Assembly (NCBI RefSeq): GCF_000484535.1 | Contig: NC_022600.1 | Coordinates: 3,286,001 to 3,350,000 of the forward strand | Direction: 5' to 3' | Source of the DNA: Gloeobacter kilaueensis JS1 | GTDB lineage: Bacteria > Cyanobacteriota > Cyanobacteriia > Gloeobacterales > Gloeobacteraceae | DNA length: 64,000 nt | Shown: positions 11,787 through 63,616 of the stretch, one piece after another | Layout of the letters: the number at the start of each line of letters is the position of its first letter | Numbering within the stretch: position 1 is the first letter of the stretch | Program-made: the position numbers and the translations under genes | The notes under the pieces: model-generated | What the model saw: the letters and a program-made list of their open reading frames with translations, nothing else | Databases searched by the model: none | What the model was told of the DNA's origin: nothing

Positions 11787-13424
11787 TTAGATCGCGCAGT
11801 TGAGCTGTTTGGTGCGCTGCGAGAAGCGGATATTCTCGCGATAATCCACCGGACAATCGATCACCGCCGGTACCTTCTGCTCAAGGGCGCTTCTGAGGAC
11901 GGGCAGCAACTCGTCTGCGGCCTCGACGCGGTAGCCTTTGAGGCCCATACTCTCAGCCAACTTCACAAAGTCCGGGTTGCTGAAGTGGACGTAGGCGGCG
12001 CGGTTGAAATGCGTCTGCTGCTTCCACTCGATAAGCCCGTAGCCGCCGTCGTTGAAGATCAAGGTAACGAAGGGGGTGCCCACGCGCACGGCAGTCTCCA
12101 GTTCCTGCACGTTCATCATGAAACCGCCGTCGCCGGTGACGGCTACCACCTTGCGCTCGGGGTAGACGAGTTTGGCGGCCACCGCGCCGGGGATGGCGAT
12201 GCCCATCGAGGCGAAGCCGTTGGAGATGATGCAGGTATTGGGCTGGTCGCAGTGGTAATGGCGGGCCACCCACATCTTGTGCGCGCCGACGTCGCTAATC
12301 AGGATGTCGTGGGGGGCGAGCACCTGGCGCAGGTCGTAGATGATCTTCTGCGGTTTGATCGGGTAGCCGGTATCGCAGGCGTACTCCTCGTACTCGCCCC
12401 GAATGTCCTCGCGCAGGTGAATGGCGTAGGGGTCGGGCTTGCCCTGGCGGTCAGCCCGCGCCAGAATCTCCTGCAGGCTGTCGGAGATGTCGCCTACAAC
12501 TTCGACTTTGGGAATGTAGCTGCTATCGACCTCCGCCGCCGTCTTGCCGATGTGGACGATCGGGATCACTCCGCCGGGATTCCACTTTTTGGGCGAATAT
12601 TCGATCTGGTCGTAGCCGATCGCGATCACGAGATCGGCTTTGTCGAAGCCGCAGCTGATGTAGTCGCGCTGCTGAAGGCCCACCGCCCAGAGGGCGAGGG
12701 GATGGGTGTAGGGGATGACGCCCTTGCCCATGAAGGTGTTGGCGACGGGGATGTTCAGGCGGGTGGCAAATTCGGTCACCGCCGGGCTCGCCTGGTTGCG
12801 GATAGCACCGTTGCCCACCAGGATGATCGGATTGACCGCCTGCGAAATCAACTCCGCTGCCCGGTTGATGCTGCTGAAGGAGGCGAAGACGTCGTTGTTG
12901 TCGGTAATTTCGAGCGGTGCCCCCGTCGCTGCCATCGCCGCGATATTTTCGGGCAGGTCGATGTGGACTGCCCCCGGTTTTTCGGCCTGGGCCAGCTTGA
13001 AGGACTTGCGGACGATCTCGGGGGTATTGCTGGGCCGGACGATCTGGGTGCTCCACTTGGTGACGGGAGCGAACATCTGTACCAGATCGAGGTACTGGTG
13101 CGAGTCGATGTGCATCCGGTCGGTGCCCACCTGGCCTGTGATCGCGATGAGGGGCGCACTGTCGAGGTTGGCGTCGGCGACGCCGGTCATCAAGTTGGTG
13201 GCACCGGGGCCGAGGGTCGAAAGACAGACTCCCGCTTTGCCCGTGAGCCGTCCGTAGACGTCGGCCATAAAGGCGGCACCCTGCTCGTGGCGGGTGGTGA
13301 TAAAGCGAATCGAAGAATCCTGCAGCGCTTCGAGAAACTGCATGTTCTCCTCACCCGGCAGGCCAAAGATGTACTGGACACCTTCTTTTGCGAGGCACTG
13401 CACCAACAGTTCGGCTGTGTTCAT
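11787..13424 (-). CDS. ThDP-dependent 2-oxoglutarate decarboxylase (acetolactate-synthase-like), TCA-cycle bypass
   Basis: The 545-residue enzyme has the full ThDP-enzyme layout. The PYR domain carries the activating glutamate in TTRHEQGAAFMADVYGR, a central domain follows, and the PP domain carries the metal/ThDP motif GDGGFMMNVQE followed by FNDGGYGLIEW. By sequence alone it would be called the large subunit of acetolactate synthase. It lies directly downstream of succinate-semialdehyde dehydrogenase, with ATGA overlap at 13421-13424. That is the arrangement of the Synechococcus 7002 pair shown to convert 2-oxoglutarate to succinate via succinic semialdehyde. No regulatory ilvN is nearby. 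An in-frame GTG at 13433 is an alternative start; the ATG gives the conserved MNTAELLVQ start. Substrate assignment rests on context. Confidence 0.82.
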   Translation of the reverse strand: MNTAELLVQCLAKEGVQYIFGLPGEENMQFLEALQDSSIRFITTRHEQGAAFMADVYGRLTGKAGVCLSTLGPGATNLMTGVADANLDSAPLIAITGQVGTDRMHIDSHQYLDLVQMFAPVTKWSTQIVRPSNTPEIVRKSFKLAQAEKPGAVHIDLPENIAAMAATGAPLEITDNNDVFASFSSINRAAELISQAVNPIILVGNGAIRNQASPAVTEFATRLNIPVANTFMGKGVIPYTHPLALWAVGLQQRDYISCGFDKADLVIAIGYDQIEYSPKKWNPGGVIPIVHIGKTAAEVDSSYIPKVEVVGDISDSLQEILARADRQGKPDPYAIHLREDIRGEYEEYACDTGYPIKPQKIIYDLRQVLAPHDILISDVGAHKMWVARHYHCDQPNTCIISNGFASMGIAIPGAVAAKLVYPERKVVAVTGDGGFMMNVQELETAVRVGTPFVTLIFNDGGYGLIEWKQQTHFNRAAYVHFSNPDFVKLAESMGLKGYRVEAADELLPVLRSALEQKVPAVIDCPVDYRENIRFSQRTKQLNCAI

Positions 13425-14809
13425 GACTCCCACACCGTTTTGATGTTGACAAATTCTAAGATGCCTTCGCGCCCCAGCTCGCGGCCATAGCCCGAGGTCT
13501 TGATGCCGCCGAAGGGCAGACGAGGGTCGGATTTGACCATGGCGTTGATAAAAACTGCGCCAGCGTCGATCGCTTCGATCAGGCGGGCTTTCTCGTCCGG
13601 CTCGTTCGTCCAGCCGCTCGCGCCGAGGCCAAAGGCGGTGTCGTTGGCAAGGTCGATCGCTTCGTTCAGGTCTTTGACCCGAAACAAGGACGCCACTGGA
13701 CCGAACAGCTCTTCACTGTAGGCCGGGCTGTCTTTGGGGATATCGGTGAGCAGGGTCGGCGCGTAGAAGTGCCCCGCTCCAGCAAGCCGTCCACCTCCCA
13801 CCAGCACCCGCGCTCCCCGTTCGATGCTCGAACGCACCTGGGCGTCGAGGCCGGTGAGAATCGCCTCGGTGGCGAGCGGACCGATATCGGTATCGGCCAG
13901 CAGCGGATCTCCTACCTTGAGCGCTCGAAAATGCTCGACGAGCAACTGCTCGAAGCGGTCGGCCACGGCCTCCACGACGATGAAGCGCTTGGCGGCGATG
14001 CAGGACTGGCCACTGTTGAGCATCCGGGCTTTGACGGCGGTAGCCGCCGCCGCCGCCAGATCCGCGCTCGGCAGGACGATGAACGGGTCGCTGCCCCCCA
14101 GTTCGAGCACCGTTTTTTTGAGGTGCTGCCCGGCGGTAGCGGCCACACTGCGGCCAGCCGGTTCGCTGCCGGTGAGGGTGACGGCTTTGATCCGTTCGTC
14201 GGCTACCAGCCTGGCGGTGCGCTCGGAACCCACCAGCAGCGTCTGAAAGACGCCCGCTTCAAAACCGGCTTGCTGAAAGATCGCCTCGATGGCGAGGGCA
14301 GACTGGGGAACGTTGGAGGCGTGCTTGAGCAGGCCCACGTTGCCCGCCATCAGGGCCGGGGCGGCAAAGCGGAACACCTGCCAGAACGGAAAGTTCCAGG
14401 GCATGATCGCGAGCACCGGCCCTAAAGGCTGATAGCGCACGAAGCTTTTTTGGGCGTCGGTCTGGGCCGGTTGGTCGGCCAGATAGCCGGCAGCGTGCTC
14501 GGCATAAAAGTGGCAGACCGCAGCACACTTATCGATTTCTGCGAGCGCGGAGGTGAGGGTCTTGCCCATCTCGGCGCTCATCAGTCGGGCGTACTGCTCG
14601 CGCCCTGCGCCGAGAATATCTGCAGCCCTGCGCAGCTTTGCGGCCCGCTCGGCAAACGTCGTGTGCCGGTAGGAGCCGAAGGTGCGCCAGGCGAGTTCGA
14701 GTCTGGCTTCGAGTTCGCTATCGCCGAGCGGGAGAAAGGTCTTGAGAATCTGACCGGTCGCCGGATTGATACTCGCGATCGGCCTTGCTGGACTTTGCGC
14801 CTGTACCAT
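13421..14809 (-). CDS. gabD: Succinate-semialdehyde dehydrogenase (NAD(P)+)
   Basis: The 462-residue aldehyde dehydrogenase has the conserved WNFPFWQVFRFAAPALMAGN block, the catalytic glutamate in LELGGSDPFIVL, the catalytic cysteine in NSGQSCIAAKRFIV, and a C-terminal PFGGIKTSGYGRE motif. It oxidises succinic semialdehyde to succinate. Together with the downstream ThDP decarboxylase it replaces 2-oxoglutarate dehydrogenase in cyanobacteria. Translation is coupled to that gene by a 4-bp overlap. It starts at an ATG 181 bp downstream of the pipX stop, on the same strand. The gap contains a GC-rich imperfect hairpin (about 14945-14977). I saw no NtcA box in the gap. Confidence 0.9.
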   Translation of the reverse strand: MVQAQSPARPIASINPATGQILKTFLPLGDSELEARLELAWRTFGSYRHTTFAERAAKLRRAADILGAGREQYARLMSAEMGKTLTSALAEIDKCAAVCHFYAEHAAGYLADQPAQTDAQKSFVRYQPLGPVLAIMPWNFPFWQVFRFAAPALMAGNVGLLKHASNVPQSALAIEAIFQQAGFEAGVFQTLLVGSERTARLVADERIKAVTLTGSEPAGRSVAATAGQHLKKTVLELGGSDPFIVLPSADLAAAAATAVKARMLNSGQSCIAAKRFIVVEAVADRFEQLLVEHFRALKVGDPLLADTDIGPLATEAILTGLDAQVRSSIERGARVLVGGGRLAGAGHFYAPTLLTDIPKDSPAYSEELFGPVASLFRVKDLNEAIDLANDTAFGLGASGWTNEPDEKARLIEAIDAGAVFINAMVKSDPRLPFGGIKTSGYGRELGREGILEFVNIKTVWES

Positions 14810-59031: not shown

Positions 59032-59691
59032 CTAGGCCGCCGAGTCGATGCGCTCCGATTGTTCCTCCACGCCAATCGCCGTAAAGACGAAGGCATCGCG
59101 CACGCCCCTCCCCGGCTGTTGCACGCGAATCGGCGAAGTGTAGTGAAACAGTTCGCGGTCGTTAATTACCAGTAACTCACCCGGATTAAGGGTCCAGCGG
59201 AGAATAGGACGCCCCTGCTTTTCGCGATAAAGAAGCGTCTCGCCGCCCTGGAGGTTGTCGATGCCGACGACGTAGATGCCGATCACCTGAAAGCCGTCCT
59301 GGTGAACCCCTTCGGGAGCGGGATAGCCCTCGTGGCCCTCCGAACAGCTGATTTCAAGTTGATGCGCACCGATCTCGATCGCCCTTGCCGTCAGCCCCGA
59401 GAGCCGGGCAAAGGTGACAAGTAACTCTTGAAAGCTCGGAAGATTGGCCAGCGCCTCTTCGAGGGGCTGGTAGGAGCGGACGATCCCGCCGAGTTTGGCG
59501 TTATAGTCACTGCTTTGAAAAAAAGTGTGATGGGGCAGTTTGATCAAACCTGCAGCTGATAGTTGAAACCGGTCGAAGCGCCGGGTTCGATAACCACCAG
59601 GGGTATACTGGTCGGCTGGAAGCGATGCAAAGTACGCACGGATCTGGGAAACATCCAGTTCCAGCCGCTGCAGGGTAAACAACTGTTCCAT
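59032..59691 (-). CDS. 2-oxoglutarate-Fe(II) dioxygenase family protein (2OG-Fe_Oxy_2 type)
   Basis: The 219-residue protein fits the small 2OG-Fe dioxygenase family that includes amino-acid hydroxylases. The iron ligands H130-x-D132 lie in PEGVHQDGFQVIG, the distal histidine is H183 in ELFHYTSPI, and the 2OG-binding arginine is R198 in GVRDAFVF. The early segment RTRRFDRFQLSAAGL and LQGGETLLYR are also typical. It probably hydroxylates a free amino acid or related metabolite. It is divergent from a PLP enzyme at 59935 across 243 bp; that pairing suggests a shared amino-acid modification pathway (inference). Confidence 0.85.
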   Translation of the reverse strand: MEQLFTLQRLELDVSQIRAYFASLPADQYTPGGYRTRRFDRFQLSAAGLIKLPHHTFFQSSDYNAKLGGIVRSYQPLEEALANLPSFQELLVTFARLSGLTARAIEIGAHQLEISCSEGHEGYPAPEGVHQDGFQVIGIYVVGIDNLQGGETLLYREKQGRPILRWTLNPGELLVINDRELFHYTSPIRVQQPGRGVRDAFVFTAIGVEEQSERIDSAA

Positions 59692-59934
59692 GAGCGTTGC
59701 CTCGCTGCTGCATCTGGCCCCATTATAACTGCTTGCCAGACGAAAGTGTTACCGGATAAACATTTTTATACGCTACAAAACTTACCAGACTATTAGGAAC
59801 ATTGTCCTACCCCGTTTGGAGTATCATTCCAGGGCGGCGGCGGCATTCTTGATTTTGCTGCGTATAAATACTCGTCAGTTGTTGTCTGCAAAGCAATTGG
59901 CTCCCAGGGTAGATTATGGAAAGTGAGATCAAAG

Positions 59935-61176
59935 ATGACGATGAAGAATGCACTCGATCTGGGATTTGTTCGCAGGCAATTTCCGGCCCTGGCAGGAGAG
60001 TGGACGTTTTTTGACAATGCGGGGGGTTCGCAGATCCTGGGGCGGGTCGTCGATCGGCTGGCGGATTTTTTGCTGAGCACCAACGTGCAGTTGGGCGCGT
60101 CCTACGCCGTCTCCGAGGCCGCTACCGCCCGCCTGGCCACCGCCCGGCAGGTGATGGCCGACTACATCCATGCCCGCTACCCGGAAGAGATCGTCCATGG
60201 CTCCTCGACCACCCAGTTGCTGGCCAATCTTGCTCTTGCGATGGTGCCGCTGTTGCGCCCCGGCGATGAGATCGTCGTCACCAACTGCGATCACGAATCG
60301 AACGTTGGCCCCTGGGTGCGGCTAGGCGAGCGGGGCATCGTCGTCAAATTCTGGAAGGTCAACCCCGACAGTTCTGCCCTCGAACCGGCGGACCTGGAGC
60401 CGCTTTTAAGCGAACGGACCCGCCTGGTCTGCTTTAGCTACGCCTCCAACGTCGTCGGTACCATCCATCCGGTCGCCCAGATCGTCCAGCTTGCCCGCCG
60501 CTACGGGGCGCTCACCTGCGTCGATGCCGTCGCCTACGCGCCGCACCGGCCCATCGACGTGCAGGCGCTCGACGTCGATTTTTTGGTCTTCAGCACCTAC
60601 AAGCTCTACGGGCCGCACGCAGCGGTGCTCTACGGCAAGCGCGATCTGTTGCTGGAACTGGCGGGCATCAACCACTACTTCATCGAGCGCCACGAGATTC
60701 CCTACAAGCTCCAGCCCGGCAACGCCAACTTTGAACTGGCCTGGGCGACGACCGGCATCGTCGATTATTTCGAGCAACTGGCCGCCATGCAAGAGGGACC
60801 ACCGGCAGAAAGCTACCCAGAGCGCATCGCCCGTGCCTTCGAGCCCATCGCCGCCCACGAGGAGGCGCTGAGTGCCCGGCTTCTCGCCTATCTCACTGCC
60901 CAGCCCAACCTGCGCATTCTGGGCCAGAGACAGGCTGAGCGCCACCTGCGGGTGCCGACCATCAGCTTCTGGGTGCCGGGCCGGGCGAGCTGGACGATTC
61001 CTCCCAAAGTCGATGCCTTCAAGATCGGTATCCGCTGGGGCGATTTTTATGCCCGACGGCTCATCGATAGCCTGGGCCTCACCCCCACCGGCGGCATCGT
61101 CCGCGTCTCGGCGGTCCACTACAACACGATCGAGGAAATCGACCGGCTGATCGCAGCCCTCCAGACCGTACTCTAA
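59935..61176 (+). CDS. Class V aminotransferase-fold PLP enzyme (cysteine-desulfurase-like)
   Basis: The 413-residue protein has the fold-type I pattern of NifS-like proteins: TFFDNAGGSQI, HGSSTTQLLANLAL, NCDHESNVGPWVRL, the cofactor aspartate D197 in TCVDAVAYAPH, and the Schiff-base lysine K223 in FSTYKLYGPHA. Databases usually label this subgroup cysteine desulfurase-like. No cysteine is present after residue 195, so the mobile-loop catalytic cysteine of true desulfurases is missing. A lyase, epimerase or transaminase reaction is more likely. The ATG at 59935 is preferred over a GTG four codons upstream. Confidence 0.87.
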   Translation: MTMKNALDLGFVRRQFPALAGEWTFFDNAGGSQILGRVVDRLADFLLSTNVQLGASYAVSEAATARLATARQVMADYIHARYPEEIVHGSSTTQLLANLALAMVPLLRPGDEIVVTNCDHESNVGPWVRLGERGIVVKFWKVNPDSSALEPADLEPLLSERTRLVCFSYASNVVGTIHPVAQIVQLARRYGALTCVDAVAYAPHRPIDVQALDVDFLVFSTYKLYGPHAAVLYGKRDLLLELAGINHYFIERHEIPYKLQPGNANFELAWATTGIVDYFEQLAAMQEGPPAESYPERIARAFEPIAAHEEALSARLLAYLTAQPNLRILGQRQAERHLRVPTISFWVPGRASWTIPPKVDAFKIGIRWGDFYARRLIDSLGLTPTGGIVRVSAVHYNTIEEIDRLIAALQTVL

Positions 61177-62743: not shown

Positions 62744-63616
62744 ATGCCCAGGTATTTCCCCTACGCCGACGGCCAGTGGCGGTTACATATCGGCTTGAGC
62801 GCCCTCGATCTCAGCGAGTGGATCGAACTGGACGAGGAATACCCCGTCTACCTGGCCCGCAAGCAGCAGCTCCTTGCCCAGCGCCGCGACGAGGTGCTGG
62901 TGAACCTGCCGGACAGCCTGCCGGAGCAGATAGAAGTGCGGGACTTGCTCATTGCCCATCTGCTGCAGCGCTTTCCCGAGCATTACCAGCGGAGCGGCCA
63001 GCAGGTAGACAACCGGATCACAGGCGAAAGCTGGAACATCGACGCCTTCGCTTCGCCGCTGGAGCTGGCCTCTCGGCTCGTTCAAGAAGATCTCTGCATC
63101 CTCAGACCTGCCACCGGAGCCTACGTCCTGAGCGCTGCCTGCGTCTGTTTTCCCTCGCGCTGGTCTCTTGTCGAAAAACTGGGCCATCCCCTCGCCGCGA
63201 TCCATGCCCCCGTACCAGGGTACGGCGAGCAGTTGGCCAGACCCGTGGACCGCTTCTTCGATCGGCTCCGGGTCGAAGCACCGATGCAGCGGCTCAACTG
63301 GACGATCGTCGATTCACCTGCCCTCTTTCTGCCCCCCGATCACCCCCGCGCCGCGCCTATCGCTGCCTCCGAGGCCGGAGAGCACCTCTGGATCCGCATC
63401 GAGCGCCAGACCCTGCGCCGATTGCCCACCACCGGAGCCGTTCTTTTCACGATCCGCACCTACGTCCATCCCCTCGCCTGTCTGGAAGGGCAACCGGAGA
63501 TGGCCCGCGCCCTGGCCGAGACTGTGCATCAGATCCCGGAACCGATGCAGCTGTACAAGAGCATCTTGCCGGTGCGCGAACCCCTGCTCACTTACCTGAC
63601 AAAAATCAGTCATTAA
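62744..63616 (+). CDS. Heme-dependent oxidative N-demethylase family protein (DUF3445)
   Basis: The 290-residue protein matches DUF3445, now known as the alpha subunit family of heme-dependent oxidative N-demethylases. It has LSEWIELDEEYPVYLARKQQ, ILRPATGAYVLSAACVCFPS and RWSLVEKLGHPLAAIHAPVP. The hallmark RIERQTLRRLP-TTGAVLFTIRTY follows near residue 222. The characterised enzyme removes methyl groups from amines such as dimethylamine using a PAS-like heme domain. The other subunits of that enzyme are not in the window, so the activity here may differ. Confidence 0.85.
   Translation: MPRYFPYADGQWRLHIGLSALDLSEWIELDEEYPVYLARKQQLLAQRRDEVLVNLPDSLPEQIEVRDLLIAHLLQRFPEHYQRSGQQVDNRITGESWNIDAFASPLELASRLVQEDLCILRPATGAYVLSAACVCFPSRWSLVEKLGHPLAAIHAPVPGYGEQLARPVDRFFDRLRVEAPMQRLNWTIVDSPALFLPPDHPRAAPIAASEAGEHLWIRIERQTLRRLPTTGAVLFTIRTYVHPLACLEGQPEMARALAETVHQIPEPMQLYKSILPVREPLLTYLTKISH

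Follow-up and report, generated by a model that had tools for sequence, protein, structure and literature searches.

What reaction, if any, joins an oxygenase and a desulfurase-like enzyme whose genes diverge from one short intergenic stretch in the cyanobacterium Gloeobacter kilaueensis JS1? Both genes lie in a window of 64,000 nucleotides, by which we mean the whole stretch of DNA analysed (contig NC_022600.1, positions 3,286,001 to 3,350,000), within a genome of 4.72 Mb on one contig. On the minus strand, positions 59032–59691 encode an Fe(II)/2-oxoglutarate (2OG) oxygenase of family PF10014 (219 aa), a predicted C4-hydroxylase of free amino acids. On the plus strand, positions 59923–61176 encode a class-V PLP enzyme of family TIGR01976 (417 aa counted from GTG), which we predict to be an Fgm3-like lyase for the Cβ−Cγ bond of γ-hydroxy amino acids. 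The 231 bp between the genes (59692–59922) presumably form a common promoter region. For the PLP enzyme a start at ATG 59935 is as likely as GTG 59923, and ATG 59941 is also possible; residue numbers given here count from the GTG. An earlier note on this DNA had described the divergent pair with H130, D132, H183 and R198 in the oxygenase, and all of this could be reproduced. Judging from sequence, we consider it fairly probable that the two genes stand for C4-hydroxylation of a free L-amino acid followed by cleavage of its Cβ−Cγ bond.

Families and active sites of the two enzymes

The assignment of the first protein as an amino-acid-hydroxylase-type oxygenase was confirmed by its match to Pfam PF10014 (205.8 bits, cutoff 23.1, residues 19–204). 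Its closest solved structures are PF10014 enzymes, among them the L-isoleucine-4-hydroxylase 6lnh. The HxD⋅⋅⋅H iron triad is complete: H130-x-D132 (59296–59304, minus strand) and H183 (59143–59145, minus strand) are found in every one of 39 aligned homologues. One homologue of the oxygenase shares 85% identity with it. R198 (59098–59100, minus strand), kept in 36 of the 39, is presumed to bind 2OG by analogy with the fold. With L-isoleucine 4-dioxygenase (IDO) and HilB the protein shares the Pfam family, the triad and the type of a free-amino-acid C4-hydroxylase. Those enzymes, however, feed other pathways (AMKP, dihydroxyisoleucine) and do not supply a PLP lyase, and the window oxygenase reaches only 29.3 bits against the HilB equivalog model NF042428, below its cutoff of 350. 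PF10014 enzymes were reported to hydroxylate free Leu, Ile and Thr at C4 (PMC3684760). Published substrates of the family comprise Leu, Ile, Met and Thr; Arg is not among them. We know of no PF10014 arginine hydroxylase. A search of open papers returned nothing relevant that names the PF10014 structures 9dq0, 9dqp, 8w8h and 8jms or the Fgm3 structure 9x4u, and no homologue of the oxygenase was found in the phage records searched. AlphaFold models of the two proteins, calculated from two-sequence alignments, were too poor for use (mean pLDDT 35.5 and 47.5).

In Rhizobium sp. 007 (L138:5660-7624) a PF10014 oxygenase is fused to an 'argininosuccinate synthase-related' protein, and in Agrobacterium vitis (L141:5660-7645) the PF10014 gene adjoins a separate gene of that description. 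A DMT-family transporter gene lies upstream at both loci.

The PLP enzyme scored 210.5 bits against Pfam Aminotran_5 (cutoff 21.5) and 364.8 bits against TIGR01976 'cysteine desulfurase-like protein' (cutoff 352.35), which is a hypothetical-equivalog model only. It falls short of the models for SufS (209.9 bits, cutoff 475.1) and CsdA (159 bits, cutoff 493.6), and it stays far below the cutoffs of the other desulfurase families too. Among solved structures the best match is Fgm3 (9x4u) with 320 bits (E=2.5e-94) over the full length (residues 11–417), followed by UstD (7mkv) with 229 bits (E=9e-67); annotated desulfurases reach at most 167 bits, all behind these two. In the phylogenetic tree the window enzyme belongs to clade A, together with other cyanobacterial, rhizobial, Rhodobacter, Polaromonas and Deinococcus enzymes. 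Clade B, with clade C nested within it, contains the usual oxygenase partner outside Gloeobacter. Clades A and B are both separate from SufS.

The earlier note had described a desulfurase-like enzyme that lacks the catalytic cysteine, which is borne out by the alignment: Tyr376 (61048–61050, plus strand) aligns with the catalytic Cys of SufS, and among 64 homologues this column is Tyr in 57 and His or Ala in the remaining ones, with no Cys at all. The SufS-like protein of the host genome itself retains the RAGHHC motif. Cysteines occur at 122, 170 and 199 only, so that the claim of no cysteine after residue 195 is correct if translation starts at ATG 59935, and fails from GTG 59923, where the last is C199. 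The PLP lysine and core fold motifs are shared with SufS and CsdA, members of the same superfamily. K227, the Schiff-base lysine by alignment, follows Y226 (Y226-K227 at 60598–60603, plus strand), which stands in place of a His in SufS. H232 in a 'GPH' motif (60616–60618, plus strand) and H399 in an 'HYN' motif (61117–61119, plus strand) correspond to Thr and Phe in SufS. All three residues, Y226, H232 and H399, are common to clades A and B, Fgm3 and UstD, and the YK/GPH/HYN signature of an Fgm3-type lyase is thus present. H124 (60292–60294, plus strand), conserved in all clades, is presumably the PLP-stacking His as described in Fgm3 (PMC10367076).

These results support the conclusion that the enzyme without the cysteine is not a persulfide-forming desulfurase, and to this extent the earlier statement that it is unlikely to be a sulfur donor stands. 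The argument is carried by the relationship to Fgm3 and UstD and not by the absence of the cysteine alone, because SufS mutants in this Cys retain selenocysteine lyase and cysteine-sulfinate lyase activity; a missing Cys by itself would leave other β-eliminations possible.

Co-occurrence and arrangement of the two genes

Whole-genome searches of 338 genomes of the same class revealed a close relative of the oxygenase in 54 genomes (57 genes), 52 of which also encode a PLP enzyme of the Cys-less family. For 35 of the 57 oxygenase genes the PLP gene lies within about 320 bp, and 31 of these 35 adjacent pairs are on one strand with the oxygenase first. At genus level, a clade B/C enzyme occurs in 31 of 36 genera with the oxygenase compared to 1 of 107 genera without it (Fisher p = 5e-25, a value that means 'very strong' but should not be taken at face value, since genera are not independent samples). 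Similar arrangements were found further afield: on Salinivibrio plasmids the oxygenase gene is followed by the PLP gene a few bases apart, and in Photobacterium the two are about 35 bp apart. The pairing of the two families is not a matter of chance, and the earlier note's own objection, that co-occurrence might be lacking elsewhere, has fallen away.

The partner of the oxygenase comes from one of two separate PLP clades: in Gloeobacter it is a clade-A enzyme, in other genomes one of clade B. All four genomes of the Gloeobacter clade that we examined show the divergent layout of the two genes; one relative among the genomes compared is the Aphanocapsa lilacina MAG. Among 50 genomes with a clade-A PLP enzyme, 35 have no PF10014 gene, which points towards clade-A enzymes also serving other partners or imported substrates. 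A search for conserved neighbours of the PLP gene in cyanobacteria with clade A and without PF10014 gave none that is informative.

The earlier note had also linked the pair to a 2-OG theme of the window. This link found no support: some 44 kb separate the pair from the ThDP/SSADH-like genes concerned, nothing suggests that they form one unit, and a direct metabolic connection to them (11787–14809) was rejected for want of any conserved association. In that region an SSADH-like gene adjoins one for a ThDP enzyme assigned to the PRK08322 'acetolactate synthase' family; we take the two to be probably the cyanobacterial 2-oxoglutarate decarboxylase/succinic semialdehyde dehydrogenase bypass under a misleading annotation. 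At 62744–63616 the window further contains a PF11927 protein similar to the α-subunit of haem-dependent oxidative N-demethylase; a partner subunit was not recognised nearby.

Proposed chemistry and possible substrates

In the first step the oxygenase would use O2 and 2-oxoglutarate to place a hydroxy group on C4 (γ) of a free L-amino acid. The PLP enzyme would then split the Cβ−Cγ bond of the 4-hydroxy amino acid to release an aldehyde (or ketone) and leave behind an enamine, protonation of which would give L-alanine. A hydroxylase beside an Fgm3-like enzyme is chemically coherent, because one makes the γ-hydroxy amino acid that the other cuts. Both reactions, their order, the amino acid used and what becomes of the aldehyde are our inferences from family membership and gene context.

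The precedent comes from fusaoctaxin guanidinoacetate biosynthesis in Fusarium graminearum. There, Fgm3 cleaves the Cβ−Cγ bond of 4(R)-hydroxy-L-arginine, which is made by the P450 Fgm1, to L-alanine and a guanidino aldehyde, and the amidohydrolase Fgm2 later opens the cyclised and oxidised product glycociamidine (PMC10967133; for the mechanism of Fgm3 see also PMC10367076). As proposed for the window pair, a hydroxylase acts first and a PLP lyase second; the two PLP enzymes belong to one family, are homologous over their full length and have the same active-site signature. The hydroxylase, in contrast, is a P450 in the fungus and a PF10014 Fe/2OG enzyme in the bacterium, where the substrate is a prediction. 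As a partner for an Fgm3-type enzyme, a PF10014 protein of the right type, a predicted C4-hydroxylase, is present and co-occurring. The Fgm cluster further has an SDR and a ring-opening hydrolase, whereas neither an SDR nor a cyclic-amide hydrolase was found among the annotated neighbours at 55.4–63.6 kb. Hydantoinase, agmatinase and aldehyde dehydrogenase genes do not adjoin the pair either, and a search of the host genome gave a dihydroorotase-type match only and no agmatinase match. The pair is best explained as a bacterial version of the Fgm1/Fgm3 route of fungi, based on 2OG; membership in the Fgm pathway itself is not claimed. The proposed modification route, which the earlier note thought might be undescribed, is not entirely so, since its two-step chemistry is familiar from fungi. 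The bacterial pair may already have been reported elsewhere, as our literature coverage comprised open papers only.

For the window pair, our leading guess is that L-arginine would be converted into 4-hydroxy-L-arginine and further into L-alanine and guanidinoacetaldehyde. Provided that the two-step chemistry holds, we see a little less than an even chance for arginine as substrate. Taken together, the gene neighbours of relatives speak for an amino acid with a guanidino or ureido group, arginine first. Clade-A relatives with 49–55% identity are found in operons of an amino-acid ABC transporter and the PLP gene, with the dihydropyrimidinase/hydantoinase gene hydA in 7 of 8 examined and usually an FCD/GntR-type regulator. 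This looks like catabolism of an imported γ-hydroxy (guanidino/ureido) amino acid. Since glycociamidine is a hydantoin-like ring, a hydantoinase-type hydrolase could plausibly stand in for Fgm2; such genes were confined to the clade-A operons of proteobacteria and Deinococcus. The transporter/PLP/hydA operon occurs on plasmids of Rhizobium, Mesorhizobium, Pararhizobium, Polaromonas, Deinococcus, Alloyangia, Rhodobacter and Aureimonas (L128-L133, L136, L137).

In two more relatives (45–48% identity), from Rhizobium leguminosarum (Vavilovia, L144:5992-10876) and Phyllobacterium zundukense (Vicia nodule, L145:6073-13594), the PLP gene lies directly downstream of an agmatinase-family gene, with an amino-acid transporter and a polysaccharide-deacetylase/PuuE-like hydrolase nearby. 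Fgm2 was described as polysaccharide-deacetylase-like (PMC6389888), and (2S,4R)-4-hydroxyarginine occurs in lentil seeds (PMC6769807). Use of vetch 4-hydroxyarginine is possible at these two loci. In clade B, the Shinella relative (L142:4081-11295) adjoins arginase, ornithine cyclodeaminase and a Lys/Arg/Orn-type binding protein, and that of Rhizobium CB3060 adjoins aldehyde dehydrogenase and a carbamoylase-type hydrolase.

Clade-B-like PLP genes are also present on plasmids of Leucaena and Mimosa rhizobia (L143, hits H73, H78), at L143 with aldehyde dehydrogenase, a carbamoylase-type hydrolase and two transporter sets; they might serve the degradation of a plant amino acid. In nine loci (L037, L088, L089, L092, L093, L096, L099, L101, L106) a class-I, aspartate-aminotransferase-related aminotransferase is encoded only a few genes from the PLP gene; the window shows no such neighbour. 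Against the model of the 4-hydroxyarginine cyclase GntC this aminotransferase scores 329 bits (cutoff 415).

Other contexts do not point to arginine: several cyanobacteria (L090, L091, L094, L104, L105) carry an SDR and glycine C-acetyltransferase behind the clade-B pair. Clade-B pairs adjoin genes of amino-acid and acyl-CoA degradation (Kbl, acetoacetyl-CoA-synthetase-like, β-oxidation), and the PF10014 substrates reported are of the Leu, Ile and Met kind or Thr. Both observations would fit the same two-step chemistry on a hydrophobic amino acid (Leu, Ile or Met), which would convert 4-hydroxyleucine into alanine and acetone, or 4-hydroxyisoleucine into 2-aminobutyrate and acetaldehyde. We regard this as possible but rather doubtful, considering that the nearest characterised PLP relative acts on 4-hydroxyarginine and that the proteobacterial relatives sit with guanidino/ureido enzymes. 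At one further locus (L122:6173-9237) the oxygenase gene is followed by the SDR and glycine C-acetyltransferase genes without a PLP gene.

The second solved relative suggests another direction of the reaction. UstD, the decarboxylative aldolase of ustiloxin B biosynthesis, is likewise a Cys-less 'cysteine desulfurase-like' enzyme of fold type I that handles γ-hydroxy amino acids via a PLP enamine. It makes γ-hydroxy amino acids, with alanine as by-product of enamine protonation (PMC11976203), and thus differs from the lyase proposed here by the opposite reaction direction, its fungal peptide pathway and a more distant sequence. Given the common residue signature, the window enzyme could form a C−C bond from L-Asp and an aldehyde, or act as a β-decarboxylase, with the oxygenase either providing the aldehyde or altering the product. 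This is unlikely, as Fgm3 is clearly closer (320 compared to 229 bits), the adjoining predicted C4-hydroxylase would supply a γ-hydroxy substrate directly, and there are no peptide-maturation or NRPS genes near the window pair.

A sulfur or selenium enzyme, namely a cysteine sulfinate desulfinase or selenocysteine lyase, for which the SufS Cys is not strictly needed, is very improbable. The superfamily is the same and the SufS/CsdA models do match at 150–210 bits, but these scores are far under the cutoffs, the active-site loop and the His/Tyr positions are Fgm3-like, and of the three cysteines clade A conserves C199 alone and clade B conserves none. Such a function would also leave the tight link to the oxygenase unexplained. 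That the genes are chance neighbours with independent functions is hardly tenable: they are divergent and not co-transcribed in Gloeobacter, and clade A often occurs without PF10014, yet this reading is largely refuted by the counts for adjacency and co-occurrence and by the order of the genes, which resembles an operon in distant cyanobacteria and in Vibrionaceae.

Taking hydroxylation and Cβ−Cγ cleavage as the preferred reading, we tentatively suggest a widespread bacterial oxidative arginine shunt. In cyanobacteria and Vibrionaceae, a PF10014 arginine 4-hydroxylase and a TIGR01976 4-hydroxyarginine lyase would yield alanine and guanidinoacetaldehyde, while rhizobia and others would use the lyase with hydantoinase- or agmatinase-type hydrolases on plant-made 4-hydroxyarginine.

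Bacterial relatives of Fgm3 and UstD are wanted as biocatalysts, since the two characterised UstD homologues showed poor expression in E. coli (PMC11976203). A large PLP family carries the misleading public name 'cysteine desulfurase-like', for which the predicted lyase offers a testable two-enzyme function; if the arginine shunt is true, the whole Cys-less family is misnamed. With arginine as substrate, cyanobacteria would have an added oxidative route of arginine breakdown, and the transporter–lyase–hydrolase operons of rhizobia would be explained.
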